Positions 13,722 through 62,818 of a stretch of DNA of 64,000 nucleotides are shown here, piece by piece. This DNA comes from Bolinopsis microptera (lineage: Eukaryota; Ctenophora; Tentaculata; Lobata; Bolinopsidae), in assembly GCF_026151205.1 (NCBI RefSeq), contig NC_087072.1, forward strand, positions 4,512,084-4,576,083, read 5' to 3'. The position numbers and the translations under genes were made by a program. Under the pieces are notes generated by a model. The model saw nothing but the letters and a program-made list of their open reading frames with translations, ran no database searches and was not told the origin of the DNA. Position 1 is the first letter of the stretch. Each line of letters starts with the position of its first letter.

Positions 13722-13740
13722 AAGTGATAATTACTTTATT

Positions 13741-27098: not shown

Positions 27099-27254
27099 TT
27101 AGCACCCTTCCATCTCCAGGAGATCTTTGGGGGTGTGCATTGGTCCGGGAGACTTCTCTCTTGACTGGAGGGGTTCGACATCCACATGTGGCAGGTCCGT
27201 CCGGTTAGCTGCTATCAGAGTTCGTACCTTACTGTGTATCACCGCTAACTCGTC
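27099..27254 (-). CDS. cyclin D copy A exon 6
   Basis: 51 codons plus TAA after TTTCAG: DELAVIHSKVRTLIAANR..., ending HTPKDLLEMEGC. Thr304-Pro lies 10 residues from the end, close to Thr286 in the 295-aa cyclin D1. Confidence 0.85.
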   Translation of the reverse strand, partial: DELAVIHSKVRTLIAANRTDLPHVDVEPLQSREKSPGPMHTPKDLLEMEGC

Positions 27255-30200
27255 CTGAAACAAAGATTTTGTTTTTAAACTCCAACGCGAAAAAGCGAGC
27301 ACACACGCGGACCCGGATTAGTTAGACAATATCTATAAATTATTCATGACACATATTATCTAAGCTCCCATCGTTATGGATTATCAGCATATCACCAACG
27401 TCTGAGTGTCTGCTTCCAGAGCAAACTGCACTGGCCTCGCGACCAGAAGTGTACGTATCAACCAGCGCTTTCACCCGACTGCTTACTTCACTCATCCGGG
27501 AAGCGTGTGTAATCTTTTCCGAGACACGCGGATTTTCTCAAATTAGCCCCTTTGAGGATACATATCTCGGAGTCTTCTCTTATGGCATGCTCTATGAAAG
27601 TATGGTGAAAGCACGACCGCACCCCAGATTGTGAAGCCGTACACTCCGCACACGAATAATAAGATCAGAAAATATTTTAAGTAGGGATCACGCGAGAGTG
27701 TTAAAAATGACTCGAACCAGCAAAGAGTCTGGTTCCTAGAGACGATATGGTGGTCGGAGGATGATGCAGGTGGTGTTACTGGTGGGATGGTTAGGGTACC
27801 AGAGGGAGCATGTGGTGGTAAGGTGCCAAAATGGCAACTCCTTGTCAACAAGTCCGGGCCTGAACAAAGTGGACACTCCACATTCTCTCACTACACCCGG
27901 AATATGGTGTGTTGTGGTGGAGTTACGTAAACCCCTAAAGTGACGTGTAAACTGTAAAGTTAACCCCCGGTGTTTGGTATTAGCTGATTGGCTCCCAATC
28001 CCCCCACACACACACACACCTCACCGGCCCCTTGTTTAACAGTCATGTTTCAAGACACCCCAGGGAGGAGGGCCTCCACTGTTTCCTGCACCACAATACA
28101 CTTTCAAATATCATCACCATTATAATGAAACTTGGTTTCTTATAATACTTTCGCTTAATACTTAGCCTCAGGCTTCTTTGGAAAGGAAAGCAAAAGTACT
28201 GTCTGTCAAGAAACCGGGAATGTTCTAGATAAAAAGGTACGGTCTTTCTGGGGAATGACGGAGGGCCTCACCTCAAGACCCAATTTATTGATTAGAATTA
28301 CTCTGCTCTGGATCTACAAACTCGTATGGGGATCTAGGTTCCCAGAATAGCTCCAAACTTCAAATAATAAGACAGTGGGCCATTTGTAGACTACTCAGAC
28401 TTAGATTTGCAATATATTTTCATTATTAGTCCAAACTCTCTTGCACACGGTTTATTTATTTCAGGCACACAAGAAGCTGGCTCCCAGCTGTGGAGCCGTA
28501 TCCTGCTAATTAGCAACTCAATTTATACTCTGGATTGGGTTTCTCTGCTGTAATTTCTCTGAAAACTTTACCAACGTGTCACTGTGAAACTGGAGACCAT
28601 GACACCTTGACAGCTTCACACCCAGCACCTTGAACCCACATTGGCTCTAATTGCAGGAGTAATTTTCAGATAATTGGGTGCAATTGGATGATTTCCTGGC
28701 TTAATTATCGTAAGGAGGGGCTAGTTGAGGAGGTTAGACGACAAAACGCACCTCGAGGGGATCTCCGTGGTACAAAGGACACAATATCTGATGATTGGCA
28801 TGTGAAAAGGAGCCCACTATCAACCCACTATCATCACTCTCCTCCCCACATACACTCTATCACTTAATACCGGGGCCCAGCCCTCTATCTCCCTTTCGTG
28901 ACACTATGTTCTATCCTACATAGTAACTGCATGGTGAAACTCCAAACGTAGCTTTCATCACCCACTATCCTTTACTTTCCCGCAACTTTCACGCTTTACG
29001 GGGTGACCCATATAGATAGTGTATTGTTAATGTTAGCAGTGCTATACTGCTGCTATACTGCAGTGCTATACCATGTATACTGCTGCTATCGACTCATTAA
29101 TTAGGTTGGGGACGAGTATCAACTATCAAGTTCAAGTTTCAACAATGTATCAATGTAGATCATATCTAGCGGCTTTACAAGCAATAATGACCCAACCCAA
29201 TAGCAATGCCGGAACCAACTCCGTCATTGCTATTTTCTAGGTTTCTTCCCTTCTCACACTATAACTCTTAATCACAAGATTTTAATGTAATTCTACAGCA
29301 ATTTCGAGCTTCTAGCAGCCAGCTTTGCTGTGAATTAACAAGACATTGTTAATTAAAACTAACAAGGATTAAGCTAATGATTGACTAGTTAGAATGAGGT
29401 TAGAATATGAGAATATGACACTGAATCTGTGTAAAGATATATTTGGATAAGGTCTAAGAATAAGGAATGAGAGATCTACATTGTAACACACATAATAATA
29501 ATGTGCTGAATAAACTGACGCTGAGTCTCATTATATACAAAATGTGAAAGTATTATCTCGACATAGAAGCATGGAATTCATTTTGCGCCTAGGTAGTTCC
29601 CACAAGGATTCTCCAAACTATTTACTCTATGGAAATACAAATAGTTTGCATTGTATTAATAAGTTATGACAAGAATCTGAAGCATTTATAGCCATTTATT
29701 TGCCGTGATTCGTATGAGGTATATGCTCTCACAAATTGTTGACGTAGTCCTCTAATGCCGACATTTCAAATCAATAACAAAAAAGAAAGATACCGAGTTC
29801 CACATAAACGTGAAAAACTCAGATTGCAGAAGCGTCCGTCTGAATATACTGAAGAAAGTTTATCAACAGAATAAAGTAAGGTAAAACACGCTAAATAAAA
29901 TAAATAAATAAATAATAAAATAAAGGATTTCTAAACTAACCTTGTTGATATCAACGAAGTGGCTCATCAGTTCAGGGAGAGTCCGTCGCAGTTCCATGTA
30001 CTTGGAACCCAGGGCGAATATGGCATCGTAGAGACATCCAGTAGCCATCATCGTACTGGAGTGCGGCAGAAACATATACTCTGAAATGGTTAAACTTTTA
30101 TAAACAGTTCCAGTTTGTAGAGGTATTTTGAGCAGAATGTTGCTGATCAAAATATTTAAAGGTCACGTTATGGTCAGATTTTCGCCATTTAATCGTCACG

Positions 30201-33200: not shown

Positions 33201-36200
33201 AGTTATATCATTGTATGTGTAATATTAGAAGAAAAGGATATAACATGGTATAAGCTAGCTGTTGCTAATTTAAACCATGATCTGTAAAATGGAACTAGCA
33301 GAAAAGGCCTCCATGAGGAATTAAGATTGGTTTGACGGAAATAGAGCTCTTCATGAGGATTTACATTAGTGATAGTGGCTCTGGCAATGGCCAGACATTT
33401 CATCTGATGTGACAAGTCATCTTAATAGTTATCAGTGGCTACTGCCAATCTAAGACAGCTGACTCTCTGTCATAATGAGGCAATCTGATAAGCTATTAGC
33501 AATCTGATAAGCTATTAACAACTCAATCAACCCCTAATACAGTTTTAATGTAGCTTCAGCTTGAACCGTTGCCAGACTGATTTGGTGGCTGTAACGGCCT
33601 GCATGCGCTGTGTCTCCCAATAAAGAGTAATAAGTGGGCAATTCATAGTGACGGCGATGGTAACCGTTAAAATGTTCACATGTGACCCACTTGAACGGTG
33701 GGTCAGAACAATTTACCAGATAACGGACAATTTTCGGAGCTCTCTCAAGCGGCGGGGAGCTATTTAGTTAGTGTGTGACAGAGAGAGGTTGCTTTCCTTG
33801 TTAAAATCATGTCTAACCGACCATCAAATGAGAGGTTGAAATTGCTGGACTAAGTCCCTGATCATTGGCCAATTCATCACATAGAATCTGTACCGTCACT
33901 GCAGGGCGAGTAAATCTCGTCTGTAGTGCGGTCAATGATCCTTGGTTTAAGCGAGATTTGCCTACTTTAAACGCAGATTACTGTCCGACATGGTCCGGGC
34001 TAAGATGACACAGACACCTAATCCATCGAAACTCAGCCACTTCATGACTCGCAGTTTGAATATTTTACATAATCAGATCCCTCTCTAGTGCGGCGGCAGA
34101 ACATAAGTTAAATATTTAGATACTAAGTCTGATTTAACTGAATAGTTTAAACTGAGTTGTTAATCTCAATCGCAGAATTATAAAGAAGTAGTACCTGTAC
34201 AGCACATGTTTATGAGGGTTCTGGCGTGGTAAGTTACTCGGCTCTTAACTTGATCTGGTATCGGGAGTCTGTGGAGGAAGTGGTCTAACAGGTCGTGAGG
34301 TAGCACCGCGCTCGTGTCCCAATTCAACATGTTCAGTATTCGCAGCTCCCAACTCTGAAGGTGATTCTGATTTAGTTTTGTGAAATAGTGATAACAGTAA
34401 GGGGAAGGCATGTGGATTTATTTTGAGTATCTGTAAGTTGGTTGACAGAAGACTGTTGGGAGGAATGTTGAACTGATATACCAATCTGGATCCATTTACA
34501 AGTCACACGCTAACCGATACAAAAGTGATCGTATCTAGATACAAATTGTTTGATCCAGACAGTTTTGTGGTAACTGGCAATAGCATGCACTATTTCCCCC
34601 CAGTTACTGCCGAATTATGACACTGCGACATCTACCCAACTGGGGTTTCGTTATTTGGAAGCCTGCTATTGGCTGGCTGCACCAGTTCCGTGCAGTGATT
34701 GGATAATGGATATCGTCACCCTGACAAACTGCACTTGCGGCCGGGGGCTTCTCATGGGCAATTCCAACGCAGCTTAGGAGTAAATGGATTATGATATAAA
34801 AGTTGAAACCCAACTCTTTAATGGCATTACATGAGGGGAGTGGAGTTGTGTCAATGTACCCGATCAGAAAGTCTGAAGGAAACACCAATGCACTCACGTA
34901 CCTACTTGAACATTACCACATCTTATCTGTATTATACTAGCCTGTATTCTGGGTTGAAGAGCGGATAAAGCTAGCAATCTTGACGCCGTCAATTCTTGTT
35001 CAGTTTCACTACCGCTAAGCCGAGGGTACATACTACACACACGTAAACAATTGCTAACATTGATGCCAGTTTGGTCAATGACTCGAATGCTTCGATGTAA
35101 TGCAAGCGGTTCAAGGAATTCGGAAAGATTGAATGTTTATATTCAACCCATTGACGTTCTTAATATTATAGAATGTTCCCATTGTTCAAGAATATTCACA
35201 TAGAGCCTCGGTATTATACTATATGTTTTAGAAAACTCCAAAAAATGTATGCTCGTTACGTTGAAGAGCAAAAAACTTCCTCTCAAGTCTAGCAACGTTA
35301 AATAGATGATGGACTAAAATTAAAGGACCCTAGCTAGACGGCACGGATATGTTATATTATTGATAACGTAATGAAGTTTATTTTTTCTTACATTTCGGTT
35401 GCGAATACGATAAGGCACGCAAACAATTTCCAAGAATACCTTAGACAATAAATTCAAGAATGTGGGAGACTTTGATTACAGTAAGGTTCGTAATAAATTC
35501 AATACGTTGAGTACATTCATTCATCTATAAAGACACATTACATTGATTCTACCTCGATCTCCAGAAAATCTAGAAAACTCCTAAAGTAAACCTGCCGAAT
35601 TTCAAGGTCATGGTTTTGGGGTTGAACAGTAGTCGGCTAATTGTTGCGCGGAGCTAGAGTTGGGTTTCAATTAAACCACTTGTCGGGGGTCCCATGAGAT
35701 GATGAAATGGACCACTCCACCAGGAGCTTAGTCGCCCTCTCTGCACGTGCAATCTCTATCACCCTCACTTCTCGTTACATCAACATATTTTCAGGTCGAC
35801 CCCAAACAAACGGCCATATTGAGCCTATTTGAAATTGGAAGATGATGACATTGAGAATGATGTTGAGGGCACGTGCAAACTCCTTCATTAGCGGCCCTAC
35901 CTAAAAACTTAATTATCACTTTGAATTCGACCCAGTTGAGAGGGTCTAAAGACCGTTAATCGACAGTAATCTAATGTTAAAACGAGAACGAGCATTAGAC
36001 ATGTAACTATGCCCAGCATTCATTCTCGGCCGACCCATGTGGACAGGTATAGAGCACGACAAAACACAAAACTCCCCTGATTTTGTGTCACATGAATCTG
36101 TCCTCAGGGTTCCTCGACGGAGGCAGCTACCTGAATATATCGGGAATAAGTAGTTCCATTAAACGCCTTATGGGAGCCCAGTCTGCCGACCAATGATATC

Positions 36201-39200
36201 ACACCTCCGTGCTCAGGTGACCAATCAGCAGGCTCAGATTTGTCACGTAGCTACAATTTCTCTGTTGGATGGGATGTCCTGCTGAATTATTCAAGAAGGA
36301 ACTCGGTACTAAATACCTGGATATGCCTGTCGTCATGGTAACTATACCCTTGTCAAGACATAAACTGGTTGGGGACAACCCTTTCTCCGATAATATATTC
36401 CTCACAATTATTAAACTACCGGTTGGTTCCCAAAATAGGGATTTACAACGTTGGTCTAATTTGTAGCAGAGGTAACCAGAAGGCAGACTAAACCTAACAC
36501 AGGGACCTCGGCACAGTGTGAAGTACCCTGACCATCGTACCGTTACCAACTAGAATTGTAGATGAAGCAGTGTACCAGAACCTTGATCCGCACCGCTCAC
36601 ACGCCAGCTAGATTGGAGAGGAATAGTGCGGTTCTTCAGAACACTAAAGTAGGACAAGGTTCGGTGCTCACCTTCCTAGCACAGACTACTTTTACAATGC
36701 TCAACTTTCCCATGACAATAATAACATTTCCTCACAGAAAAGTGAAATTGGTAAAGCAACACAGATTGAAGCCTTAATACGCTTCAAACAAAGGGACTAC
36801 CCACACTCAAATTGTTTGAAGCGATCATCTGATGAGTGGTGATGTAAAAGGACATGTAATCTACAGTCGTTTAGAATGTTTACAAATTTAACGACTCAAG
36901 TTCAGACTCAAGGGCAGACTTGAGCTCTCTGACTTTAAATCGCGAACTTTGAAGACATCTGTAGATCTGAAGATCTGAACTTAGAGGATCGTGGACCTGG
37001 GCAAGATCAACCATGTCGACACGCATTGATCATATTTCCTAGACTATTTTAATCAAAATTGATATTTCATTAGGGTGATTATAACCATCTATCATGACCG
37101 TTTGGGACCGTGTAAGCTTGTTTTTACCAATAAAAGCAGAGCTTTTCGCATGTACACTGGCAGTCAAATAAACGCTTAAAACAAACACGTCTTTCATTAC
37201 CTTAATAACAATCGATTGACTGTCAGGACAGATATATACTATCTCATCAACTGTCATCATCAAAATAAATACCAGGTCTCCCCTGAAAGTTCTACCAAAC
37301 TGTTGATGGAGCTAAGAAGGGTCGGAGTCAGCTTGGTGACGGCTGGAAAGCACAGGTCCTTAACTGAGCCCCTGGAGCATTACACCCAGCCACCATGCTG
37401 CTCTTCTAATGAGACCAGACTGTCCCTCCGCAAAGTTATTATGACGTGTAGAGGTGGGGAGGTAGTGTTGGTACCAACTTGCTTGCTTGTTCACCTTTTA
37501 AATTGATCACCGTCTTGGAGCAGGCTTCCTAACATGGGGTCTGGCGACCTGCATGGTTGATTTTACCATGGATGGTTGATATTTTCGGTTTATGTCCTCT
37601 GAGAAAGTGGATCAACCTATATACCACTGCAGGCACATTAATAGAGACCCAGTGAAGATGGAGTAAGTAGGAGTTCCATTAATACAGATTGTTGTAGGAA
37701 ATGTGGTGGTTGTTAAATTAATTCAAGTTACCAGCACAATGAACCCACTTCACGTTATCCTAAGGGTCATTGAGCGTGCTCGGAGAATAAGCAACAGCCC
37801 CTAAGGGTCCCTGAATCACGCCAAGAGCAATTACCATCCATGTCACGTGATCAGTGGTTTTAAAACCTCATTGGTTGGCTTCAGGAGTTAAAGATGAGTG
37901 GTTGGTGGTCGCGATGTAGGAGCTGACTTTTTAGTTATAGGAGAACTGAGGTGACTTAAGTACACTGCTGAGCCTTCACTGTCAAGACTGATGTAATAAC
38001 TAGTTGTAGATGTGTATAAAATGAGGTTTAGGTATGGTAAGATGGTGTCACCAACCTTAGCAGTCCACCCTCGCACAAAGGATTGAGGATCACGAATATT
38101 GACTATTGAGGTCCCCCTTCAGGAGCAGCATATCATTTAGTTACATAGTTAATAAATGTAATTAAGTATTTGAGATAAGGTCTTCTGGAGTAATGAGAAA
38201 AAGTGAAGGTTATAAAACCTACACCGTGTGTTTTTTATGATACAAAATGTTGTGGCGTCAGAATAGTCAATACTAGTGAGACCTTCTCAGTGTGATAACA
38301 AACTATGTCAAATTAGTTCCCAAGTTTCATCACATATTCAGAAACCCACTCCGATCCTTGTCCACATAAATGTACAACAGATAAGACAGAATGTATCTCC
38401 GTTATCAGCTATTGATCACATTTTAGCAACTTCATGCTGCTAACAGCCCCACAGCCGGAAATCATTGGTCCTCCCCATCCACGTGACCAATCAACTTGAT
38501 CTCATTGGGCTGTCCCATCGGATAAATTACCTGCAATGATGACAGGCTTGGGCATAATGCGCTGTGAAAACAGCGATACAACTTGTCACTGTATTGTATG
38601 GCCCACTTCCCGAGCCCGGATTGGTGGTCAGGATGGCCTGATCTCCGAGGATTGGCTGACCTGGAGCTCAACAGGTCGCCGAGCTACATTTAACACTTTG
38701 GTTTTAATGAGGATTGTCCGGGCCCTGAGGTTGTGTTGAGCACGTGTAGATGGGCTGCTAGCCAACTCACTCAGCACTTCAGCTCGCCGAGGATATTTTC
38801 ACACTTGGCACCGGATCAATCCTCTCACTGAACACCAAATAATCACCTACATGGAACTTACCAGGAACCCTGGGGTAATTACTAAATATAGCCCTCGTAA
38901 ACCGTAGTCTAACGTGCACGTACGCTCTGTGAATGGTAGCCTAAATAGAGGAGGTAACGTCATCCTTAGATCCTGAGACGGAAAAGTTTAGACCCCGGAG
39001 AGGATTACAGATTTCACAAGTTGTTATTTTGGAGGGTTAGGTCACATTGCCACTTCTATTGTAGGACTCCTGGCAGGGAAGGGAAACAACGTACCGGACC
39101 TACCAAACCTGTGATCGAGATTACGTCACATTGTTCACTGACTACTGATCTCTGTGAAGGGCATTGGATACTGATCTAATCTTCCTTCGTAACTATGACT

Positions 39201-42200
39201 TTTTTATGGAGCATAATTATAAACGTTGGGGAACTTTACAGTTATCATTAGATGGAAGACACTGTAAATGTAATGCATATTGCAGGATGCTACTAAATGT
39301 AAACATCTTGATTCTTGAAATATTCTTTCAGGAGAAATTATAATAAGATCATCATGTGAACTCCCTAAATAAGCATATATCCTAAGAAATATATTTTGAA
39401 GTAAGTTTACTAATACTTTTAGAGGGCAGAGGAACAACTTTCGATTCTGTACCAGGAATTTGGGCGCTCAATTAGTAGATTACAAAACCATGGTAAGTAG
39501 GGAGTGAAAAATGCTTCACACACTCAACCGATGCTATTTTTGAATTTTGTAAGTTCACCTGACCCGATCCTCAAAGGTCATTCTCTCAGGCTCAGCTATT
39601 TCTTCAAATTTCTTAAAATACTGTAAAAACGTCCTGAATAGTGGTGAACTTATAGGGGTAATTTACAAGAGCACATCCTAATTGTTTCGGTACACGTAAT
39701 CAAGTTCGACACGCACTGTAGTTCATCAAACCCAAAGGTTCGACTCTGTCGAACTAAAGTGCGCTACCTGGACTCAAGTTCGACACGTACTAGAGAGAAC
39801 TACGACTGTCGAACTAGAGTTTTAAATCTCCGATCTTAAGCAACGATCCTTTACGAGCTTGAAATCTATTCGTTTGTTTGTTTTCCACTTGTCTCATGCT
39901 GTTCAACTTGAACTATGTGTGAATGTAATCTCTATAATCCATATCTATGAACATTCAATTGACCTCGTACTCCGTTTTATATACTTGTAGAGTACGCTAT
40001 AAAATATCTACCACATACCACACATTTTATGTATTATCACAATCAACTAGTAACCGTACCCAATACTCACTGGGTTTATCTGCCATTGAACCCAGTGATC
40101 TTATAATAATGACCCGGCAATAGCCGGTGGATCACTTAAGTTGTCGAACTATAGTGCGTGTCGAACTTGAGTACGTAAATCCGATGAAACTAGTGATTCA
40201 CGTCCACTTCATTTTTTTGGAGGTAAGAATTCAAAAGCAAAAGAAAGGCCCGTTCTTTAGCTACTACAGCTCAGAAAAAACAGTACCAGGATGGCTATAC
40301 CTCGTTAATTCGCCGACGGGAATGCATTAAATTCATTTGGCCGGTAATTTAGCCTAAGAACAGGTACGATTATTGTGATCCCAAAAACAATACCCGGTGG
40401 TTGGCAAGGGAGTATATTATATCAACCCCTCCCATCAGTGAGAATGTCCTTTTCATCGCAACTCGCGTGATACTTTGATGTTCCTCTATCATATATCTAG
40501 CGATCATTGTTTACAGTCGATAACAAGGGCTCAGTGATAAGAGCTGTGTTTCAATATGTTAACGATAATACTGCTGCTTAACCTGCTCAATGCTCATGTA
40601 GGAGTATTGGCGATCTGCATTCCTCAAAACATGTTGCGTCACTCCGACCTTGTGTTTCCTTAGTAACCGGAGTATTTCAGGAACGTCAGCGATTCTCTTA
40701 ATTGCCTGAACACAATTGATCGGGTCCCAAAAATATTTAAAACTATGGTGACCATGGTAAAAGTTAGCCTGCTCCCAACCGAGGAAAATTTATTTAGTCA
40801 AACAAACGAGGAGGTCTTTTATTAAGGATCATTTATTAGGAACGCGTGACCGTTCTTATAGCCCGCTCTTACACCCCGTTCTTATAACTCATAACTCATT
40901 CTCATAACAACAAACAGGATTGAACCTGAATGATCTTTGTCATTTCAGATGGAATTGCGGCTTTAATAACGCCGAATCTAACGAATTTTTACCCTAATTT
41001 GGACTAATTTGTGGACGGACAAAGAATCAAAGAATTAAATTGAATCATGAGCGGAACAAATTTAATCGGTCGGTATTATTCCTCACACCAAAACTCAGCC
41101 GTTACACCCTTTGACTTCTTTAACAGTTCACTAGCCAAAACACTGACCTTTCTGTTGACCTGGAGATCGTGTAGCTAACAGCCTCGTGTACACAGTAATA
41201 CATATCTGACAAATCAACATACCAGCTTTCATATATATCATGTATATGAAGCAAAAATCAAGCTCTGAAGACCTGAAGTTCTAACATTTCAATCTGCTTC
41301 TGCATTTTGTTGTCGAAAGAATTTTAAACCGGGGCCGGGTGTGGAGTCACAAATCACACAATCTCATATTAATCACGATCCATCGCAGCCAATTGGCATC
41401 CACCTCTGAGAACCATAACCACCGCATAAAATGGGTACATACTAATTATTCTAATAATTTCTCAAGTACCAGGCACAAAACCAGCCTGGACCCCGGAAAC
41501 ATCCACAAAGGAAAACTCCCACGGAGACCAAACGACATAACGGGTCTCTAGCTCAGGGAATTCTCTGTCTCCAGTTCCACCACACATGTTGAAGCAGCGG
41601 AGCAAGCTCGTAACCAGAGCCAGGAAGTGCTTGAGACTTGAGAGTTTAAATATTTGAAGCAGGGTCCCCCGGATATACGAGTGTATGATCAAAAATATAA
41701 CCGTTTGTATGAACTTGATAAGGAAACCTTTGAGGGAGCGATGGTACTAAATAACTTCTAACTCTTTGGAGCGAGATGTAAAGACAGATGAAATGTAAAG
41801 ACAGATGAAATGTGAAGTATGTGATATTTGAACCTATGAGAAGTTCGGTAAAGATGTGAAATTTAGTGCAACGAGAATTTGAAATAGCAGCTAAGTTGGT
41901 ACCAATATTCGGAGGAGACGAGCCCCACATCCCACCAGCCAGGATGTAGTCTAGCCACCCCGTACACACCACGACACCATGTTAATTGTACACATTGCAC
42001 AACAAATGTACATTGTCCAGGGTGGTATTATTGGCTGCGGGTTCTGATTAAAGCTTCAAATACGCCCGCATTTCCTTTGCCCAGTGACATCGCAAAAGTT
42101 GCTCAAAAATCGCTTCTAGGACGCTTCTAAGTGAGAAGTATTGGAAGGTAAATAGTTCACATTTTCTGAATACTGCAAATGCTTCGGTGTGAGTCATTGA

Positions 42201-45200
42201 TCCAGAGGCTCCACTTGGTACTGATCACAGATCACAGTTCAAGCTCCCAATGAGGATTACCCCACATATCTTATACACCTTCTCAGTGGCTCTAAAAAGT
42301 TCCAAAACTGCAAATATGCAACCGGAATGTTTGGAAATTCCAAATAGACCTAGAAAATCATTCTTGTCGCTTGATTAGTGGCCTGAGGAAATGCTAAGGA
42401 ATCGGAAACCTCTACTTCTAGATTCAGCCCCAGATTGGTACCCGTATTCGAGTACTTTTTAACGAATAAGAAGTTGTGTGTGATTCCGTATATAATATCG
42501 TACATTGCAACGTTTAATGTGGTTTTATGCCAAACAATACATTTCCATTTTTCCTCGAGGACACCTGTCCAAGGTTATTTATATCCGAGAATGTATGAAC
42601 TATGTACCATGTGATACCAAATACCATGTGATACCAAATACCACAGCCAGAACTGTAAGTTCCGTGTATGTAGATTTGGGTCCGCGTGACCTCAATAAAA
42701 GGGTTGTGAATCAATTATTCCAATTGAATGACTCAGCCAGACTTTGACATTAACATTCATGTAGAAATATCAACTCCACTATATTTCAGTCGTTTTAAAA
42801 TTCGAAAACGCTCCAATTTTTCTTGGAGCGTCAGCTACAAATAAGATTCATTTTAGACAAAAAATGCAGCTTTCATTTGTTACAGGCACAAATTCTGTAT
42901 TAAATTAGGGACGAGATCGAGTAGTCTGAATTAAAAAGAGGGCTGACGTATTACCATAGTTTTGCAATTTGCATGACGTACAAATACATTTCTGTGGTGA
43001 TAATAGAGCGATCAGTTAGTCGTTATGAGCCTCTATAGTCTATAGTCGTAATGAGCCTTCATAAAGGATTAGATTGGACGTGATGAGGTATTTCTGAAGC
43101 TATTTTCAACTTAAACAGTTGGTAAGCAATCTGCTAGGGGTGAGGTCCCAATCCGACAAGTATTAATGAGAAGAATCTAAATTGTGATAGATTCGCCTCT
43201 TATTCACCTAATGAATAATTTGAGTCTGTAAGCAGTGTGTGCAATATTGGGGTTTAAAACCGTTTAAACAAGGGAAGCATTTAACGGCCAAACGTTCAAA
43301 TTATAGGCGTTACTGAGATTCATACATAAAATGTTTCCTTCATGATTGAATATTCATGCTTTTTTTTTTTTTTTTTTATTTTTTTTTTTTTTAAGAGAGG
43401 CTGGGCATAGAAAGCCCACTAGAGGATAGCATTAAGATGCTTTGCCTACCTCTGGGATGAGGGGGGGTTTATTGGAGACAACAGTGTGAATTGTGGAGGA
43501 CGGTGGTGGTAATGATCTGAATGGGAATACCGCGCTTTGGTACCAGATGAGTTTATAGATCAGTTAGGCAAGGCTGCAAATGTGATGTGTTAATGCGCTA
43601 AGTTACGCCAGTCTGATCCAGTTCTTCTGGTACTATTAAGCGTTTGGTGCGGTTTGTGAAGTTGACGATTGTGGTAATGTGATGGTTGTCGAATATGTCG
43701 TTGACCGAGAGGTAGTAGTCCCGAAAGTATTGACCTCTTAGTTGGGCAATAGCTGGGCACTGTCCAAGAAAGTGTGAGACAGTTTCCTCTCCGTCACCGC
43801 ACATAGGACAAGCACTGGTACTAGATTTGCGGATGGTGTGAAGGTGTTTGTTTAAGCCACAGTGGCCCGTGATTAGGTGGACTGCGGTTCTATAGTCTTG
43901 TCTATTGTTGATGAGTGACGTGTTTATATTATTGATTATTTTGGTGTGCTTTTGGCCAAGTGTTAGTTTGGTGTGTCTAGGACCATCTGTTAACCAGATA
44001 TCCTGATTCAGTCTGTGAATATTCATGCTGTTCTACTTACAGATACTGTAAGTATACTTGTACAATATTTCCCTTACTCATCTCTTCACTTAGGTGTTAG
44101 GTTAAATGATGGAGCCCAGGAAATTTTGTGATAAATTTGATTCAGATTTATCACAAAATTTGAATCAGATTTTGGCTTGTAATTTTTCTGCTGAAAAACT
44201 TTCAAATTTGCTGACTTCTATAGAAAAGAAAGTGTATAAGTTCAATATAATAGTGGGTGGCGTTATGAAAGACTAAAAGTCTGCCAAGGACGATAAACTA
44301 GACATGAACATTACTAAGACTTCAGTTAATTGGCGGTGTAGACTGGAAACACGTTTTTAGTGTGTTCCGCGAGATTTGCTTTAATTATCTTGAAACACAC
44401 TGTACTTATTGTTTGCAATTCTATCAAATTCGATAGAAAGGAGTTAATAGAAAGCTTATTATCATGTATCATTACATCCAAATTTTCAAAATACTAAATA
44501 CTATGGACCAAAACGATTTTAATATTTTGTCTGCTGAACAAAGGATTAAGATATACTGTGATCTTTCTGCATTTTTCAAAAATGCAGTGCTTCAACGGAA
44601 TTTTATTTTATTCAAACTCCCATACGTACATAAAATGTCATATTAGAATGAAAGATGCAGCATGTTTACATTTCTCTAGCAGACGTTCAGGGAAAGTCTG
44701 TGGGGCGGTGCTTGTGACAGACCAATTTGTCACAGTACTCCCAACGGACCCACTGGGTCAGCCTAATATGCTATGTGCTTGAGTAAGCGGAATCTTGTGG
44801 TGAATTAGCGTCCTCTTAAAACTTGGTTGTAACGAGCACGGCGCAACGGTATTTTTAACGATACGTTATTAAAAAGTTACAGAGTTGAGAAATGGTTGAA
44901 ACTATAGGTGTTGAATAATGTTTAAAATATTGAAACTGTTAACTAACCCTGACTTGCTTGCTGGTGTAGCTAAAACTTCCACTCTCACATAATCTATCCA
45001 CAGGTAGGGGTTGGTTCTCTCGGAGTTTGCTGGCCAGGAACAGGCACACAGCTCCGATAACTTGCAAATCGTCCCGGGGTGACACAACCTGGGTGGTATA
45101 AACCTCAGGGCCACGAAATTTGGCAGGAAAATTGGGAGATCAACTCGTTTAGACTGCATTATATCATGCGGTATAAAGTACATCAACGACCATATGTCAA

Positions 45201-47057
45201 ATATTTGGAAGAATTTAGGGGCTGAATAGGTGGCAGTGTATCAACATACGGTGGCTTTAGAGAGATATCTGTCTAATAAGTTAACTGCATGAGGTAATAC
45301 TCCTTCCTCGCATACGTCAGAGATCTGAAATGTATTGATAAGGGGTTAATAACTAGATAATTACATTAATGCAAATTATATTCAATGATTTCGATGATGC
45401 GACAAAGCTCGCTGAGCCAGGGTTAATATATTATGATAATTTGTTGTGGAGTGAAAGTTATTGTTTGAAATATGACCGTTATCATAATTTTGCTAGATTA
45501 TGAATTCGCATTAAGGCAACATAATAAACAATCCCATCATAAGATCATGGATTTTTATGGTTTACATTAGGTCAAATATGTAGGTTCTATGGAATCCCGT
45601 AAATTTTCTGGATACATTTAATCGTTCAATGACAGGATGACGCAGAAAGGTTTGACATTTAACGCATATGAACCAGTGCATGGAGAAACCACAATTGCGA
45701 AATGTTACAGTGACAACTTTTAAAATAAGTCAACAACTCAAGGTTACGATACTTGTATATACTCATGAAAGTGGAATGACTTTTAACTTTATAGCGAACA
45801 ATTTTGCAGGACAGCTTTCTCTGCGTACCTACTGTTAAACACAATATTTCTGTTTGAGTTATCAGAAGACAGTGGTATACCGGTAAACTCATTAGCTAGC
45901 AACCAATTTTAAGATAAGTAAAGATGTTTTTATAGATTAGGCAGCTTGCCGGCCCCCTGAACATGTGTAACATTTACATACCAACATAAAGTCGAGTCAG
46001 CCCAAACCTCACCACAAATCTTATTACTTCGTAATTTCAGTAAGAAATAAGGGCATGTCAGGCTTGATAAGATTGTGTGAACCTTATCAAACCAACAGCC
46101 CACGCAGGCCCAGGTATCACGTCACGGACATGTTGTATGTATTTTCTCTTGAAATTATATACAAATATTCTCATTCCATGATTCCCAGCCGATAAATATG
46201 ATCGCAATCCCACGAATGTATAACTGCATACTAAAAGCATTCCACTCTCATTGAGCATTAGAACGCATAAGGAGTCCGGAACATTGCCACCCATGTACAA
46301 TATAATTACGACGGGAACGCTCAAATAGACCTTTATTCTATTGAACGACGGGAGACAATGTTCTAATATGAAATATGATGAGGCATGTCTGATATGTAGT
46401 GAACTGACGTCATAGCAACATGGTGAAAGGAGACCGCTTACTGTCCTAACTGAGATGATGACGTAATTGTGTCCACATTTATGGTTCGATCTTATTCAAC
46501 ATATTGTTACTGTAACTCTCACAGAAATCAAACGCATGGTAACTAGGAATTTTCCCTACCCAAGTGAAATCCGTACACAAAGAGGAACTGGGGCGTATTC
46601 TCGATTGATTTGAAAATATAAATTTTCAAATGAACATTTAATCTTAAACAATAGTAGTTCGACGAAACAAAGCAACTCTGAGTCAAAGAGACATCCAAAA
46701 ACCGCAAATTTCTTGTTTATTTCTATCAAGTACCGATAGTAATAAACAAGAAAAAGGACGAACATTCAACTTGAAGCTACACACCTCAAACATCCACTCC
46801 GTAAGTTGCTTTCTCATCTCTATCGTAAAATTGTTCTTCTGGATAAGCTCCAGATATTTCGGATTCGGTTCATAGAACTTGCTGACTCGTATCAAGTTAT
46901 TCAGTGTCTTTGGGTCATCAATATTACAGCCATCTGGAGCAGCACGTCGTGGAACATAATTCTCAAATCCAGATTCATAACAAAACATCGACAAGTAGGA
47001 TAATGTGTTTAGACGGCGTGGAAGCACATCTGGAAACGAATAATTTGGTTGGGACAT
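27099..47057 (-). CDS. cyclin D, copy A (complete, six exons)
   Basis: D-type cyclins activate CDK4/6 to phosphorylate Rb in G1. Exons in coding order: 47057-46785, 45324-45250, 45088-44948, 34354-34195, 30080-29941, 27254-27099; 945 nt, 314 aa, all GT-AG. Cyclin-box landmarks: MRKQLTEWM (residues 81-89, the MRAIL region), LLDRYLS, LQVIGAVCLFLASK (Lys137, equivalent to cyclin D1 Lys112), SWELRILNMLNW (Glu166, equivalent to Glu141), LPHDLLDHFL. The N-terminal Rb-docking LxCxE is represented by MFCYE (24-28), Met for Leu. The C-terminus HTPKDLLEMEGC resembles the cyclin D1 Thr286-Pro degron. Intron 3 is 10.6 kb and holds a LINE insertion. Lies 3.6 kb downstream of copy B on the same strand. Confidence 0.9.
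29941..30080 (-). CDS. cyclin D copy A exon 5
   Basis: 140 nt between ATTTCAG and GTTAGT, completing a split Glu codon: YMFLPHSSTMMATGCLYDAI..., the second cyclin fold (PPSMIATGS-like in vertebrates). Confidence 0.9.
34195..34354 (-). CDS. cyclin D copy A exon 4
   Basis: 160 nt between CTTCAG and GTACTA: SWELRILNMLNW...LPHDLLDHFLHRLP...HARTLINMCCT. The first 134 nt in coding order differ from copy B exon 4 at only three positions. Confidence 0.92.
39694..40176. mobile_element. fold-back/MITE-like element
   Basis: Terminal inverted repeats of 31 bp agree at 29 positions: left from 39694 (ACGTAATCAAGTTCGACACG...), right ending at 40176. Further copies of TCAAGTTCGACACG and its complement lie inside the left half (about 39744-39820). 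No ORF. It lies in cyclin D copy A intron 3. Confidence 0.75.
43347..44029 (-). mobile_element. 5'-truncated LINE with target site duplication and A-tail
   Basis: Bounded by a perfect 14-bp direct repeat TGAATATTCATGCT (43347-43360 and 44016-44029). The element is in minus orientation with a long A-tail (T run ~43361-43393). The ORF (43598-44026) encodes an ORF2 C-terminus: LTLGQKHTK, LITGHCGLNKHLHTIRKS, and the zinc knuckle CPMCGDGEETVSHFLGQC (CX2CX8HX4C), typical of I/R1/Jockey-type LINEs. Its apparent ATG falls in the duplicated host DNA, so it is not a native start. Confidence 0.88.
44121..44161. repeat. perfect 16-bp inverted repeat, 9-nt loop
   Basis: AAATTTTGTGATAAAT (44121-44136) and its exact reverse complement (44146-44161) flank TTGATTCAG. 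It is next to the LINE but not part of it. Confidence 0.85.
44948..45088 (-). CDS. cyclin D copy A exon 3
   Basis: 47 codons between CACCCAG and GTTAGT: VVSPRDDLQVIGAVCLFLAS, K137, LREN... This is the cyclin-box core. Confidence 0.9.
45250..45324 (-). CDS. cyclin D copy A exon 2
   Basis: 25 codons between TTTCAG and GTATGT: ISDVCEEGVLPHAVNLLDRY..., matching the family's EVCEE...FPLAMNYLDRFLS segment. Confidence 0.9.
46785..47057 (-). CDS. cyclin D copy A exon 1
   Basis: 91 codons from ATG (47057) to TTTGAG before GTGTGT. It carries MFCYE (24-28) and MRKQLTEWMFE (81-91). No in-frame upstream ATG extends a cyclin-like reading. Confidence 0.88.
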
Positions 47058-50000
47058 TTCCCTTAAAGAAGGGACGAGCGCTCGATTTCAAGATCGGCTG
47101 TATTGAAGATGTTGAATTTTGGCTAGCGCGCGGCGCTCTGATTAAATCAGTGATGCTGCCGCTGCGCGCCGATGCTTTAAAATTCCTGATATTATTAATT
47201 TAACTGATTATTTTAATTGTAGTAACTCATTAAAATTATCCAATTATGATCTAGTACATGTACAGTCTTGCTAACTCGACTCAATTTAATTGAGAGCTAC
47301 ATGGCAACGCCTACTTTGTACTTAAGTTACAATGTTTCTCATTCATCATCAATCATGCTGTTATGTACATCATATCTAAGTTTCTCCGTGACTCAGGCTT
47401 TTCATTACAACACAAAAACAGGGTCAGATAATGCATTGGAAAAGTATCTTTTTACAATTTTAAGTTGGGCACCATAAAGCTTAAATAGGTAATAATAAAT
47501 TTGTAATTATACATTATTATGATTATAGTTTATTAATCTTTTCCAAGCTGAAAACTATGGACTAGTGCGTAAAGTAAAGCATATGACATACGGCCCACTA
47601 GCTTAAATCGACTGTTCAAAATAAAATAATATTGATTGCTGGTGTAAAATGTCATTTTTACAAAATATTTGAATTGAAGTGAGGAGTTTGCTTATTTGAA
47701 AAATGATGCACAAAAAAGTTCGGGTATTGAATTGGTCGTGACCACAAATTAGTTCAGCTTGGGACCTACAACTTTGGATTTGTTTCTCATTTCTACAACT
47801 AAAAAGCTCATGTGGTTTTAGTGAAGTCATAGATCATAAACTTAGAGCACATGCATAATTGTCAGTGGCAACCTACGACAGAAGCCATTTTTCTTTACTA
47901 AATGGCGCGCGGCTTGTAACTGTCTGTACTCAATTCTGTGGTCAATTTCGCATATTTATTATTATAATTGAGTGGTCTTGTTCTTCTAAAAAGGGTTTTA
48001 AGACTATCCTGACGTACAAGTACTAACTTCATTTATTATGCATAAATGGTATGTTAATGTTTGTGTTGAGTGTTGCTAACTTGTTAGTGTAACCACTCAT
48101 GACACATCACTGCAGAATAATGAGTGAAATGTTTTATGTTTTTGGCGATGTAACTGATAAGATCAGGGTGGCATATATTACGGTTGATGGTTGACTGTCA
48201 ATTTTAACGTGTCTGGAAAGCGATCGATGACATTCTATAGAAAAAGCGAAGACTTTTACTTCTATGCACTACACTGTACACGGATAATCACTTTCCACGA
48301 ATTCATTCCTGGAATTTCTGAGAATAACATTCACACTTTTACTAGGCACTTATCTCAGTTCTGAAGCACACATTTTACATCCTCAGTAAACAAATAAAAC
48401 AGTAAGTTGGTGGGGAATGAATTGGAACAACATTCAAAATTTACATTTCAATTGACTATTTCTTTCTTTGGTCATCTTCCTTACTATATTATTATGTTAA
48501 ATTAGATAACAATTCAAAGTCAAACGGCGGCTTTATTCTTAAACTGTCTTTGGTTATGCACCTGCCTAAATTCATATCTGTCGATTCGGTGTGTATCACT
48601 CAAATGCATTAACTAACATCAAAATAAATTGCACATAAAACTGTATATCAAGACTTTCATAAATTAAAGAGTTAAAAATTTGCTACAAACTTGTCGTTAT
48701 GTATTTTTTTATCAGCATATAATTATTTGCTTTTTTTCCTTATTTATCACTGTTTTCTCCTCGAAAGTTTCAAGATCAAACACCAAAAATATAACACTAA
48801 AAGTCTCAGTATTACATTGCACGTACCCCTCGTAACGTCATTCTCACGCCAGCCGTAGAAATGCAGAATATAATAACAACTACCCAGTGTGTCCAACTCC
48901 AAAACCACACGCTACTACTAAGGGCAGCACACACGTTGACACAAGCCCTTCATCACATTCGTAAATCAGAAAAGAAGCTCCGCCCAGAAACAACGCACGT
49001 GCACCTAAGTTCAGACCGAGTACCAGGCAAGTTCAGACAAAATACCGGCCACGAGGCCCTGCCGTGCGACGTGCACTCACAACTAAGTGAGGTTAGCACG
49101 TCAACTACCCTGCTACACTTGCAGCTACAACTAACTGAGTTAAAAAGAAAACGTTGTCACTTGTCAAGGTGTGTGTTAAATCATGTGTGGTTAAAGGTTT
49201 CTAGTGGACCACAGTAGCTGGTTTAAGTAGCGCTGAGCAGTCACCAAACAATTACTAGAGTCCATTTTTATTATCAATACCGAGACACCATTACACTGGG
49301 TAATCGTTAAACTATTTTTCAAATTTTCAAATATATACCTAAATCCGTTGACAGAGTCAATGTGTTGGCCATTCAATCTCATCTCGAGTATTATATCATT
49401 ACAATATCAGTACACACTTTTCTTGTACTCATCCACTCTTCGTAGAAAATAATCCTAGGTTTAAAAAACTAATACAAAACCTATAATGAAGGTCTGTTGA
49501 TATCATGAAAATACGTGTCCTTGCAAGTAATGAAATTATTGCCACCAATAAATTATCCCGGACATATGTAAGGTTTCTTCGCAATAACAGAAGACAATCA
49601 TTTCACAATAACTTGCAAGAACACGTGTTGAATATCGCTCTACATGCTATTTGTAGAGGGAAAAAAAGAAACGTGTAGCTGTAACCCATCAACAACTTCT
49701 CAATTACGATTCGTCATTGACTGCTGTACGTCAGACAAATTTATAGATAACTTATCCCTTCTCTCTCGCGAAAACACTGGCAAACAGATCAAGTAGCCTA
49801 AATATATTATAACCTTGTCCCACCGCATCATCATCATCATAACAGGTAGACATTTAAATTTAAAACACATATTCAGTGCGAACTCATCATTATAATTATA
49901 ATAAATTAGTGATTATTAAAACGAATTAAAAAATTAAAAAGGTAAATGTAACCCGTGTCCTATACAGCTCACCAGTGCAAATGCCAGGTGGACTGGACCC

Positions 50001-50612
50001 TTACCATTAAAACAAATACCAAAATAAAATAGTGTTCAGTGTGTCAATAGCTACGAGTGTGACACTCCACTTCCCAGTCCCACGGTACATGTCTGTTCAG
50101 ATAAATCGGGGTACGGATAGGTGATCGTGAGAGATACTGATAGTATCTAGATACATGATACAGGATATCCCTTAGAAATGAACAGAGGGTGCCGTTGGAC
50201 CAAGAAGTAGAAGGTCTACACTCGATATTATTTGTGTGTGAGACTATGAGCAAGTTAAATAACTGAAAAAAACTTCTTTTTGCGTAAAAATTATCATTTT
50301 CTCACACGCAGAGCAAACTCCAAACAAGTTTTTTTGTTGAGTTATATTAGAGCATTAAGCGCACACGCTTGTTTACAGTTTAGTGTTTTATTGTTTTTTT
50401 CTATTTTTCCTAAACCTAAATCAACATATTCATATAATATAACCTAAGGCACATCACCCCACTGTCGACTGCCACGTACGTGACACCATGCGAGATGCCG
50501 CGCAACGAACTTCGCGCAAACCTCATTTTGCACGGGCAGCGCAAACAGTGAGCTACGTGTAGCAGGAAATTGAACTAATTGAAGAACTATATGGGGTTTG
50601 AGGGTGGGGGTG
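47058..50612. other. intergenic region between cyclin D copies
   Basis: It must hold the copy A promoter and the copy B 3' flank. A CpG-rich patch (about 47076-47170, GAGCGCTCGAT and GCGCGCGGCGC) sits just upstream of the copy A ATG. A second GC patch lies at 50485-50550 with TTCGCGCAAA, a near-match to an E2F site. A 118-codon plus ORF (48861-49217) has no recognisable family. Confidence 0.4.
50387..50392 (-). promoter_or_regulatory. candidate polyadenylation signal of cyclin D copy B
   Basis: AATAAA on the minus strand, about 220 nt past the copy B stop codon. Confidence 0.4.
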
Positions 50613-50771
50613 TTAGGTGCACAGCTCCTCGATGTTGGTGGGTGTCGATGAGGAAGGACTGGAGCTGCGTTTCTCTGAGAAGGAGAGGGGCGGGATCTCG
50701 TTTGAGGCGCCGCCGCCGCGTGTGCTTTCCATAAGCTTTCTGATCTTTGTTACTACGCCTTCAAATTCGTC
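50613..50771 (-). CDS. cyclin D copy B exon 6
   Basis: 52 codons plus TAA after ATTTCAG: DEFEGVVTKIRKLMES, a Gly/Ser-rich linker, then SSTPTNIEELCT. The Thr-Pro lies 10 residues from the end. Confidence 0.85.
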   Translation of the reverse strand, partial: DEFEGVVTKIRKLMESTRGGGASNEIPPLSFSEKRSSSPSSSTPTNIEELCT

Positions 50772-53700
50772 CTGAAATTAAACGAGGGATAAGAAAATAA
50801 TCAAACCCGAATTGAATTATAAAATTTTGGCTACACGAATGTATATTCAATAATTTAATAATATAAAATGGCGCTTTTAATGTGTTAATAACGGGGTTAC
50901 ATTTGTTCTTTTGTGGTATCGCTTATTATTCATTTTGTTTATTTTCAAAGTTTCAATATTGTTTATTTACCGTTTCTTTGATTTTTTCCACAGCTCAGAT
51001 TACATCGTTGTTTAAGTTGTTAAAGAATGTGAACCGCATTTATTAAAAGATAATCTTATAATCTTATCGTAACTTTTGTTTGAACTACATATATTAAATA
51101 TTTAGTCCGTGTAGGCGAGCTAACTATCACCAAAAATACGATTCTTGGGTTTCGCTATTCCCACGGATAAGTGTTTCGTTTCTACATTATATATCATTAA
51201 GTGTAAATTCAATTTAAAGCGTTAACATTCAATAAATGGCTATGTACAGAGAGATATAATAGCATTGCGGTACACTCAAGAGTCTTCTAAAGTTCGCTTC
51301 AAAACAGTGTAGTTTCCGTTCCAAAGAGGGTCCTATGTGATCTAATAAAGACACACGGTGGATAAAGAGCGCTCTTAGCCACCTTCTATATTTACATTGG
51401 AGATTAAAACGTTACACGTTATTTGTATCCTTAGCCTTTTACAGCTCACCATCTGTTTTATTTATTTATAAAGCGGACTGTGAAACAACCTTTCATGTTT
51501 TAGTGAAGTCAGAGCGCAGGAATGTGGAGTCAATTTTTTATTATTCTGAAGGTCAAGAGTTATAATTTTAACAATTATCATAATTATTAATATTATGGAA
51601 GACAATTAAATTTTTGCACTTTTGCATTTAGAGTGAGAATACCAAGTTACAAAATAAAAAGTTGGTACATCAAAGCTCTTACCACGTCAATTTCGATGAA
51701 TTTTCCCATGAGTTGAACAACGTTTCCTCTGAGCTCAAGAAACTTGGAACCGAGGGCGAATATAGCGTCGTAGAGACATCCGGCAGCCATTATTTTACTG
51801 GAGTGAGGAAGAAACATGTACTCTGAAAGAATTTACTCATCAAAAATAGATCAAATAACTAAAATATCTTAAATAACTAACGTATTAGTGGTATATCTTC
51901 GATATAATAACGGCAAAATACTTTTACTGGTCTTAGTATGATTCATGCTTGCGCAATTGATCACATTATGATTTGAACAAAGAAGTCTCATATTTCATTT
52001 TGTGGTCGATCGTTTAGTCGTTTGATTTTCAGGATTGGCGGGAGTGGTCTAAGATTGATTCAAATGAACCAATGGTAGACGGTCCAAAAATGAATTTCAA
52101 ATTTACTGACTAGATGAATGATGATCAAACACCTGTAGCATCTGACGATCATAACGAAATAACCCTATACGAAATTTCATTGTGTTTGACTTTAGCTACC
52201 TGTTTGAATTTAAAATTTTAATATAGTTAGATTTCAGAGCAGATGTGAGCAGCCTATGATTATTTGATGGAATCATTAACGAACGGTACAATCATACAAA
52301 ATTAAATGGTACAGATTTGTTAATGTTCAGTCACGTGTATCAAGTCTCGTACGTAGGACGGCCGCGTGTAGTGAAATTAATGGCAATTAACACTTAGTGG
52401 GGACCTTCGAAGAGTTCCTATTGTTTGTAATCAACCGGCGTCTCACACCGGTCCATTTATCGAAACATCATTATATTGTATCAAATACCACACAAAATAT
52501 CTGGAGGAATGGAAATTCAATCAAATACCACACAAAATACTGTCTCTGTATCTGGGAACATTGAAATTTATTAACTTATGTGAAGGGTCCTGAATAAGAG
52601 AAGGCTGCAGGTGATATAGGGACGGTGCACTTTATGTAAGAGTAGACGAGTAGGGGGCTAAATTGCGGCCGTCTGTTCAGTATGTGCTACGTTTTGGAGA
52701 TAACATGTAGGGACAGTCAAGCACCTCACTTTCGGCCACATTCACATTATGTCATATAAGATTGTTCCATATGCTCCATCAGCATATATCGAAATTGTGT
52801 GGAAATTACATTAGTGTCAGCATTTCACCCAGTTTCAGAGCCCATCCTCTCTAAAATTCAGATGTGATATGTAAACCCTCCCTCAGGATGACTGTGGGCC
52901 ATCGAAAATCAAGAAATTACTGTAGTCGGTTGGGAAACGATTTTACGTATGGAAGAAGAATGGAAATGTCTGGGAAAGTGACAGAATTTGAGTACCTATT
53001 GTTTCGATCGTGCACTTGAAATCTAAATTTTTCGATGGAGCCGGTACAAAGTTTGCAGAAGGCGTGGTAGGAAGTCAAATTACGGAAAAGAGCAACGCCT
53101 CACGATACTCTGATTTAAGAGCTAAATTTGTTAAATTTGTTTTAAAATATCGAGAAATGAACCGGGCGTTGTCCCAACTTCAAAGCAGGAGAGTGATCCA
53201 TAATTATCCTTACGTCAAGTTTAGTGACCGCAGGAGAAAACCAAAGACACACAACTTACCGGTACATGAAAGGTTGAGGAGGGTTCTGGCGTGGTAGGTT
53301 ACTCGGCTCTTAACTTGATCTGGTATCGGGAGTCTGTGGAGGAAGTGGTCTAACAGGTCGTGCGGTAGCACCGCGCTCGTGTCCCAATTCAACACGTTCA
53401 GTATTCGCAGCTCCCAACTCTGAAGGTTAGATAAATTTAGAAACTCGATTTGTGCGGGGCGGTCGTAATGAGGAGATTGAGATATAGTTAGGGTTGTGTT
53501 CGAGCTAATAGTCCGTAATTTCATAACTTTTATTCGGGAATAGAAACTTAGAAACAGTGAGACACTCCCACTCGTAATATGAACCACACTCCACATTCCT
53601 AACTTTTAAACCAGTTACCAGCCACTGTATATTTTGATGTGCTCTGAAACTGGGGAGAGGGCCGGCGGGGCAGCCGCATCTTGCCGCACCGGCGGTGGTG

Positions 53701-61500: not shown

Positions 61501-62818
61501 GCGACAATAAAGACAAATTTATAATTTATATGCTATTAGTTAATATGATAAGTTTATGTTTAATATTTCTAATTCTGTAAATTCGCACCTTGACTCCTAT
61601 TCCATACCTGTCGATCTGATGAGAAACCTTTACACGTGTTTACAGAGGGGTTCTGGGAATTGAGCCCAGATCTAGAGGTGTGACCAGCCGAGTAGGAAAC
61701 CAATCCGAGCTATTACATTCCAGGAAAACCAATCAGACTCTAAGCTAAGGTGTGTTTCAAACGGACTTAATTACCCTATTAATTACACACCGGTCAGTTC
61801 ATATGTTTTCTTACCAAATCCCAAAGGAATGTATAGTAAATGTATCAATGTAGACCTAATCAACCAATCCATACTATCCACACACATTCTCATCAACTTT
61901 AGGCTCCATCTCACATAAAATCTGTCAAACTATGAAGCTCATGTTAACAATTTCACCAGACTATAGAGCTCATGTTATCGATGCTATCGGACTACTAGAC
62001 TCTAGAGAGCTTATGTAGTTATGTAGTCTCAAATTAAACCGGTTTGGGCAGCTGGTCACTTACTCTAACATCCCTGATGGAGTAGCTGTATCCACCGCAC
62101 TCCACTAGTCCGTCCACGGAAAGTGGGGTCGCTTCGCGCAGCTTGCTGGCTATAAACAGGGACGTCGCTCCGAGCACTTGCAGCTCCTCTGTGGGCCTCT
62201 CGACCTGAAGTCGTGGTATATATAAACTCACATCACTTCTATATTTAGGATGTAATAACCCTAAATAGCGGACAACATGGAAAATATTAAAAAGTTGAGG
62301 CCGGGGCAGCTAGCCGGTCGAGCTAGTGCGGTGTGGGTTAAGGAATTTACACACGAATCAGACATCTCGTGTAGTCGAACGAGAGGGAGAGAGCTAGTGT
62401 TGGGCAGGAAAACTTGAACAGGTTACCACAGATCCACGGCCCCCGGAAAATTCAATTAATTCTTATTAAGCTCTCAGTTAGAATCTGATGATCGGGTAAT
62501 TTTGCGATCAAGTATGATGTAATGTTTACTTTTCGCAAAGAATATACTCTACACACCGCTGAATAAATATATATAAAATTTGAAATCCAATTCTGGATAA
62601 TGATCGCAGTTCAGGATTGATTAATGGGAAAAGAATGAGAGGGCGTACTAAATTGCTGGGTCCCCATATCGCCCACATTCATTCCTCATTGTTCTCCGGA
62701 ACGGAAACTTCCCAGCACCAAATTTCATCCGGTATAAATTTACCTTTTGGAGGGATAGATATCTATCGAGTAAGTTCACAGCGTGGGGCAGGACACCGTC
62801 TTCACAAATATCTGATAT
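50613..62818 (-). CDS. cyclin D, copy B (exons 2-6; exon 1 outside window)
   Basis: A second D-type cyclin, head-to-tail with copy A. Exons: 62818-62744, 62204-62064, 53419-53260, 51822-51683, 50771-50613. Lengths 75, 141, 160, 140 and 159 nt match copy A's 75, 141, 160, 140 and 156, with the same intron phases. It keeps LLDRYLS, LQVLGATSLFIASK (the CDK-contact Lys), SWELRILNVLNW (Glu) and a C-terminal SSTPTNIEELCT, closer to cyclin D1 CTPTDVRDVDI than copy A's. Protein identity to copy A by exon (2 to 5): about 80, 55, 92 and 66 percent; exon 6 is mostly unalignable. Exon 1 (MRAIL helix, Rb-docking motif) is not found in 62819-64000, so it presumably lies further right. Confidence 0.88.
51683..51822 (-). 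CDS. cyclin D copy B exon 5
   Basis: 140 nt between CTTTCAG and GTAAGA, completing a split Glu codon: YMFLPHSSKIMAAGCLYDAI... The first half is very close to copy A, the second half is divergent. Confidence 0.9.
53260..53419 (-). CDS. cyclin D copy B exon 4
   Basis: 160 nt between CTTCAG and GTAAGT. It differs from copy A by four amino acids, three of them in the divergent last 26 nt. Confidence 0.92.
57486..59221. promoter_or_regulatory. cluster of CACGTG E-boxes in cyclin D copy B intron 3
   Basis: CACGTG occurs at 57486, 57930, 58063, 58721, 59076 and 59216: six in 1.74 kb of AT-rich DNA, where well under one is expected by chance. CACGTG is bound by MYC/MAX, USF and MITF/TFE factors. 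Enhancer function is inference. Confidence 0.3.
58470..58549. repeat. (GA)n microsatellite
   Basis: About 40 uninterrupted GA units, in copy B intron 3. Confidence 0.95.
61264..61367. repeat. 13-bp tandem repeat x8
   Basis: Eight adjacent units of ACAAACTTTAGTT. The first four are identical; later ones carry A>T and C>T changes (ACTAACTTTAGTT). In copy B intron 3. Confidence 0.9.
62064..62204 (-). CDS. cyclin D copy B exon 3
   Basis: 47 codons between ACTTCAG and GTAAGT: VERPTEELQVLGATSLFIAS, K, LREAT... This is the cyclin-box core. Confidence 0.9.
62744..62818 (-). CDS. cyclin D copy B exon 2
   Basis: 25 codons between TTCCAG and GTAAAT: ISDICEDGVLPHAVNLLDRY... Confidence 0.88.

Follow-up and report, generated by a model that had tools for sequence, protein, structure and literature searches.

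Near-identity of a 149-nucleotide tract in two tandem cyclin D genes of Bolinopsis microptera and its probable origin by interlocus gene conversion

Two cyclin D genes are arranged in direct tandem in the genome of the ctenophore Bolinopsis microptera, and the question raised by this locus is why one of their exons, exon 4, is nearly identical in both, silent sites included, when exons 1 to 3 have diverged strongly. The stretch of DNA analyzed, referred to here as the window, comprises 64,000 nucleotides (nt; C1:4512084-4576083, contig NC_087072.1) of an assembly of 264.65 Mb in 232 contigs. Both genes, designated A and B, lie on the minus strand, and their models were predicted from the DNA sequence. 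The original prediction for this DNA had attributed the near-identity of exon 4 to a short gene conversion between old paralogues. According to the sequence comparisons described below, a recent and possibly repeated interlocus gene conversion of approximately 149 nt between genes A and B is very probably the best explanation.

A shared tract with sharp edges

Exon 4 comprises 160 nt in each gene, and the copies are located approximately 19 kb apart. The positions given in the original prediction are exact, with AG acceptors and GT donors in both genes (Table 1). The two copies differ at 10 of the 160 nt, three of which fall within the first 141 nt and seven within the last 19. A recount also returned the figures reported earlier for a slightly different division of the exon, namely three differences up to nt 134, of which two are silent, and seven in the remaining 26 nt. 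The difference at nt 25 (ATG/GTG) exchanges Met and Val, and those at nt 57 (CCT/CCG) and nt 123 (ACT/ACC) are silent. The differences at the 3' end are located at nt 142, 144, 148, 150, 152, 153, and 159.

Upstream of the exon, the match between the genes extends 8 nt into the intron (ACCTTCAG) and then stops abruptly, as had been noted before. On the basis of the identity profile and a two-state model, the parameters of which were set by us, the tract covers 149 nt, with its edges at intron position −8 and at exon nt 141. In the model, the posterior for the tract falls from 0.99 to less than 0.1 over about 10 nt at each edge. Outside the tract, the ungapped identity between genes A and B amounts to 1 to 8 of 20 nt per block, the two blocks that contain the edges being excluded. 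No sense-strand similarity was found in the flanking introns using BLAST with a word size of 7 (3 kb upstream, 1.4 kb downstream), and a self-comparison of the window returned only exons 4 and 5 as sequences common to both genes. Within the tract, the exact runs common to genes A and B are 65, 32, 31, and 18 nt long. These are the only exact shared runs of at least 17 nt on the sense strand of the whole gene bodies; with a minimum of 16 nt, a fifth run appears, which is 16 nt long and non-collinear.

Silent-site divergence along the two genes

The per-exon comparison of synonymous substitutions per synonymous site (dS), proposed earlier as a check, was performed, and the expected collapse was detected in exon 4 alone. 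With the NG86 (Nei–Gojobori) method, dS is 0.15 in exon 4 and 0.07 in the tract, compared to 1.83 in exon 3 and 1.37 in exon 5; exons 1 and 2 are saturated and a value is not computable. Maximum likelihood yields 0.055 for codons 1 to 44 of exon 4 versus 2.30 for exons 1, 2, 3, and 5 pooled. Overall, dS is 0.06–0.07 in the tract and ranges from 1.2 to saturated in the other exons.

Counts of silent differences display the same distribution. Only 2 of the 41 comparable degenerate codons in the tract (codons 1–44) differ, in contrast to 66 of 118 in the four other exons (Fisher p = 1.1e-9), where the counts are 23/44 in exon 1, 16/20 in exon 2, 16/26 in exon 3, and 11/28 in exon 5. Fourfold sites differ at 2 of 18 positions in the tract and at 32 of 48 elsewhere (p = 6e-5). 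When the 165 silent-informative codons were shuffled 20,000 times, the observed segment score was never reached, and chance as the source of the silent identity of exon 4 is excluded.

The protein identity between genes A and B is 71, 80, 55, and 66 percent in exons 1, 2, 3, and 5, respectively, in accordance with the 55–80 percent estimated previously for the neighboring exons. Exon 5 is not evenly diverged along its length. Its first 27 codons are intermediate, with silent differences in 6 of 22 codons versus 55 of 90 in exons 1–3 (p = 0.008, uncorrected) and a p-value of 0.018 in the comparison with the exon 4 tract, the split having been chosen post hoc in both cases. When all of exon 5 is compared with exons 1–3, p is 0.051. 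This second, weaker sign may point to an older conversion tract or to ordinary constraint. To describe the homogenization as restricted to an exon is slightly too narrow: The collapse of dS concerns exon 4 alone, but the tract includes 8 intronic nt and ends within the exon near nt 141, and an older tract may exist at the beginning of exon 5.

Gene conversion and its alternatives

The collapse of dS in exon 4 alone, the sharp edges of the tract, and the lack of any special protein conservation of this exon between cyclins D1 and D3 support the gene conversion proposed in the original prediction. One exon 4 of the two old tandem paralogues would have served as the repair template for the other, and the repair would have overwritten about 149 nt, consisting of 8 nt of intron 3 and nt 1–141 of exon 4. 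On the intron side, the tract would be bounded by the loss of detectable homology; the other edge lies inside the exon, and the seven differences in the last 19 nt fit the in-place overwriting of a part of the exon. Such a recombination event would be recent relative to the duplication and may have occurred more than once. All of the last 8 intronic nt match at the exon 4 acceptor, compared to 5, 3, 6, and 6 of them at the remaining four pairs of acceptors, which suggests DNA rather than spliced RNA as the template, although this intronic part is short and most of its 8 bases belong to the splice signal.

A third gene as the sequence donor was considered and rejected. The joined protein of gene A gave 13 matches in the assembly, and cyclin D exons were located only at the two loci of the window and its right flank. 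The remaining three matches (on contigs C4, C11, and C10) coincide with matches to Cyclin_N and were taken as other cyclins. With this query, no third cyclin D gene was found in the 264.65 Mb, and a third copy of exon 4 was not found in the assembly, which may have gaps, using the exon as protein and as DNA. Since the searches of the assembly yielded just two copies of exon 4 and just two cyclin D genes, the exchange most simply took place between genes A and B. The direction of the transfer is not decided by the differences within the tract or by the GC content at third codon positions (GC3). Searches for relatives via exon 4 gave 209 pattern matches in a genome contig collection and 56 in a viral contig collection, none of which was confirmed as a relative.

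Several points weigh against gene conversion. The comparison is confined to one genome of a single individual. The tail of exon 4, the supposedly native end, contains the seven differences described earlier, but its silent age is poorly measured, since only six codons are comparable, one of which differs, and the dS estimates scatter from 0.09 to 4.7. The rise in GC3 in the tract (0.64 in gene A and 0.68 in gene B versus 0.50 and 0.48 in the pooled other exons) is not specific, as exon 5 of gene A also reaches 0.64 and exon 3 of gene B 0.68. The neighboring exons are approximately 61–72 percent identical in DNA, which we judge to be low for starting strand invasion; a conversion therefore needs an earlier, more similar state of the genes or repeated events. 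Because the starting homology is poor for a single late event, repeated conversion since the duplication is attractive. It would maintain a similarity of exon 4 that is sufficient for pairing. Exon 4 might even form a self-sustaining conversion island, which would have been converted often since the duplication while the other exons escaped singly, the start of exon 5 then being a decaying island; we put this forward tentatively and consider it doubtful.

As an alternative to gene conversion, purifying selection at the nucleotide level, exerted by an RNA structure, a splicing code, an overlapping gene, or a regulatory element, could have frozen exon 4 in both genes since the duplication. Exons under silent constraint occur generally, and the tract is indeed mostly exonic. 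The extent of the identity is nevertheless far beyond expectation: Of the 41 degenerate codons, 39 are the same in both copies, whereas the codon usage of the other exons predicts 15.2, and codon bias was rejected as a cause of the match on these numbers. Varied Leu codons (CTG, TTG, CTA, TTA, and CTC) coincide at the same positions of both copies, and the abrupt drop of similarity near exon nt 141 is hard to explain by selection. RNA structure and known RNA families were likewise rejected, as no match to Rfam at the gathering score was detected in the whole window and the folding of exon 4, computed for the gene B copy, is no better than that of shuffled sequences (z = 0.70). Among the listed open reading frames of at least 45 amino acids, none on the plus strand spans exon 4; a single one reaches into the gene B copy, where it covers no more than the final 38 nt.

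Constraint on the protein does not account for the identity, either. In the comparison of cyclins D1 and D3, exon 4 ranks lowest in conservation among exons 1–5 (24 of 53 residues; exon 5 was represented by its initial 25 residues and exon 1 by its aligning part), whereas it ranks highest in that of genes A and B (49 of 53). The D1 and D3 chains compared are presumably human. Compared to D1 or D3, exon 4 of genes A and B shows middling conservation (19/53 and 22–23/53). With this low conservation between D1 and D3 and the middling one relative to either of them, protein constraint gives no reason for the identity of genes A and B. The original claim that purifying selection is insufficient is supported by these values and the codon matches, and we regard selection at the nucleotide level as improbable.

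About equally improbable is the insertion of an exon-sized copy of one exon 4 into an intron of the other gene, where it would have replaced a native exon that subsequently decayed. A possible relic is located in intron 3 of gene B (61049–61008, minus strand), where the 14-residue sequence PYPNLVSTRVTYHA resembles PIPDQVKSRVTYHA of exon 4 at 9 of 14 positions. This stretch is the top match outside the exons for both exon 4 queries, and of 200 Markov-shuffled intron sets, 3 reached or exceeded its score. However, it is just 14 residues long, a stop follows one codon later, and the sequence upstream is without clear similarity to exon 4. A profile search assigned it an E-value of 0.85, it is absent among the matches listed for the D1 or D3 queries, and a chance match elsewhere scores nearly as high with the D1 query (21.8 versus 23.0 bits). 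The resemblance is probably due to chance. In addition, the seven differences in the 19-nt tail of exon 4 are as predicted by partial conversion in place. An assembly or polishing error that placed one copy of exon 4 onto the other is slightly less credible still, because the flanks of the exon are dissimilar between the genes, the window is free of N, the copies differ at 10 sites, several of which are crowded together at the 3' end, and a copy error of 149 nt within a contig of 26.2 Mb would, in our judgement, be unusual.

Gene structures, surrounding sequences, and related cases

Sequence similarity identifies genes A and B as cyclin D genes. The closest match in the PDB is cyclin D3 for both proteins (1.6e-46 for gene A and 9.7e-37 for gene B), with D1 next. 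Cyclin_N and Cyclin_C of Pfam were detected above the curated cut-off in both, in the case of Cyclin_C barely (23.4 and 22.5 versus 22 bits). Cyclin D proteins typically carry an N-terminal LxCxE motif, which binds the retinoblastoma protein (Rb). The corresponding site reads MFCYE in both genes, Met replacing Leu. Gene A extends from 46988 to 27099, or begins further upstream if the Met at 47057 is used. Gene B, with its first exon slightly beyond the window, ends at 50613. The lengths of exons 2 to 5 are equal in both genes (75, 141, 160, and 140 nt).

Table 1. Features of the two cyclin D genes (window positions, except where C1 is given)
Feature	Position	Strand	Basis
Gene A, exon 1, starting at the Met common with gene B (another in-frame Met upstream at 47057)	46785..46988	-	
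Gene A, exon 2	45250..45324	-	
Gene A, exon 3	44948..45088	-	
Gene A, homogenized tract (8 intronic nt and exon 4 nt 1–141)	34214..34362	-	Span in two-state model, identity profile, exact shared runs
Gene A, exon 4 (160 nt)	34195..34354	-	Splice sites, frame; Pfam Cyclin_N and Cyclin_C on joined protein
Gene A, exon 5; divergence of early portion from gene B only moderate	29941..30080	-	
Gene A, exon 5, first part, less silent divergence than exons 1–3	30080-30001		
Gene A, exon 6, last exon, C-terminus ..HTPKDLLEMEGC stop	27099..27254	-	Frame and acceptor; inferred gene model
Gene B, exon 1 (outside the window)	C1:4576104-4576310		
Gene B, exon 2	62744..62818	-	
Gene B, exon 3	62064..62204	-	
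Gene B, homogenized tract (8 intronic nt and exon 4 nt 1–141)	53279..53427	-	Two-state model, exact shared runs
Gene B, exon 4 (160 nt)	53260..53419	-	Splice sites, frame
Gene B, exon 5	51683..51822	-	
Gene B, exon 5, first part, less silent divergence than exons 1–3	51822-51743		
Gene B, exon 6, last exon, C-terminus ..STPTNIEELCT stop	50613..50771	-	Inferred gene model

Elsewhere in the window, a local tandem duplication was detected at 8924–9181 and 9302–9534 (81 percent identity over 197 nt and 92 percent over 37 nt). An uneven duplicate is located at 11751–11990 and 13740–14050, with identities of 94 percent (87 nt) and 88 percent (170 nt) in a strict search and 73 percent (311 nt) in a loose one. 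The open frame at 3524–2859 (minus strand; YILSVDQGTSSTRAVVID...) resembles glycerol kinase. Those at 14230–14550 and 20164–20397 (plus) resemble tetraspanin exons. The open-frame remnants at 13078–12422 (minus), 18835–19587 (plus), and 44032–43598 (minus) resemble proteins of retrotransposons without long terminal repeats (non-LTR).

Mosaic gene conversion within genes is already established. The closest case found is the adjacent pair Dlxa/Dlxb of Capitella teleta, in which the homeobox 5' of its intron and 12 intronic nt are identical in otherwise divergent paralogues; the GENECONV fragment is 150 bp long, and the argument rests on conserved silent sites (PMC3199776). This resembles the cyclin D pair in the length of the tract of about 150 bp, the inclusion of a few intronic nt, the divergence of the neighboring genes, and the argument from silent sites. 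The Dlx genes are oriented tail to tail (inverted) and their tract lies where the gene is most conserved among taxa (PMC3199776), whereas the cyclin D genes form a direct tandem and exon 4 is not the most conserved part between D1 and D3. In the mammalian pairs BMP8A/B, DDX19A/B, and TUBG1/2, some exons evolve in concert via gene conversion beside others that diverge, as in the cyclin D pair; the mammalian tracts span introns and several exons and were demonstrated with several species (PMC2720389), in contrast to one tract of 149 nt amid introns without detectable similarity in one genome. Among the matches listed in the literature, judged by titles and the openings of abstracts, none dealt with conversion of an exon in a cyclin D gene. 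The cyclin D pair is a new case of this established kind, with a direct tandem, a single exon, and introns without detectable similarity.

For a short tract of probable conversion between old paralogues, the case is unusually clean, and since the introns lack detectable similarity, the edges of the tract can be read to within a few bases. In this lineage, trees or dates derived from exon 4 of cyclin D would mislead. The pair of genes provides a test of the minimal homology for interlocus conversion and of whether a single exon can be kept in concert by conversion amid diverging neighbors.

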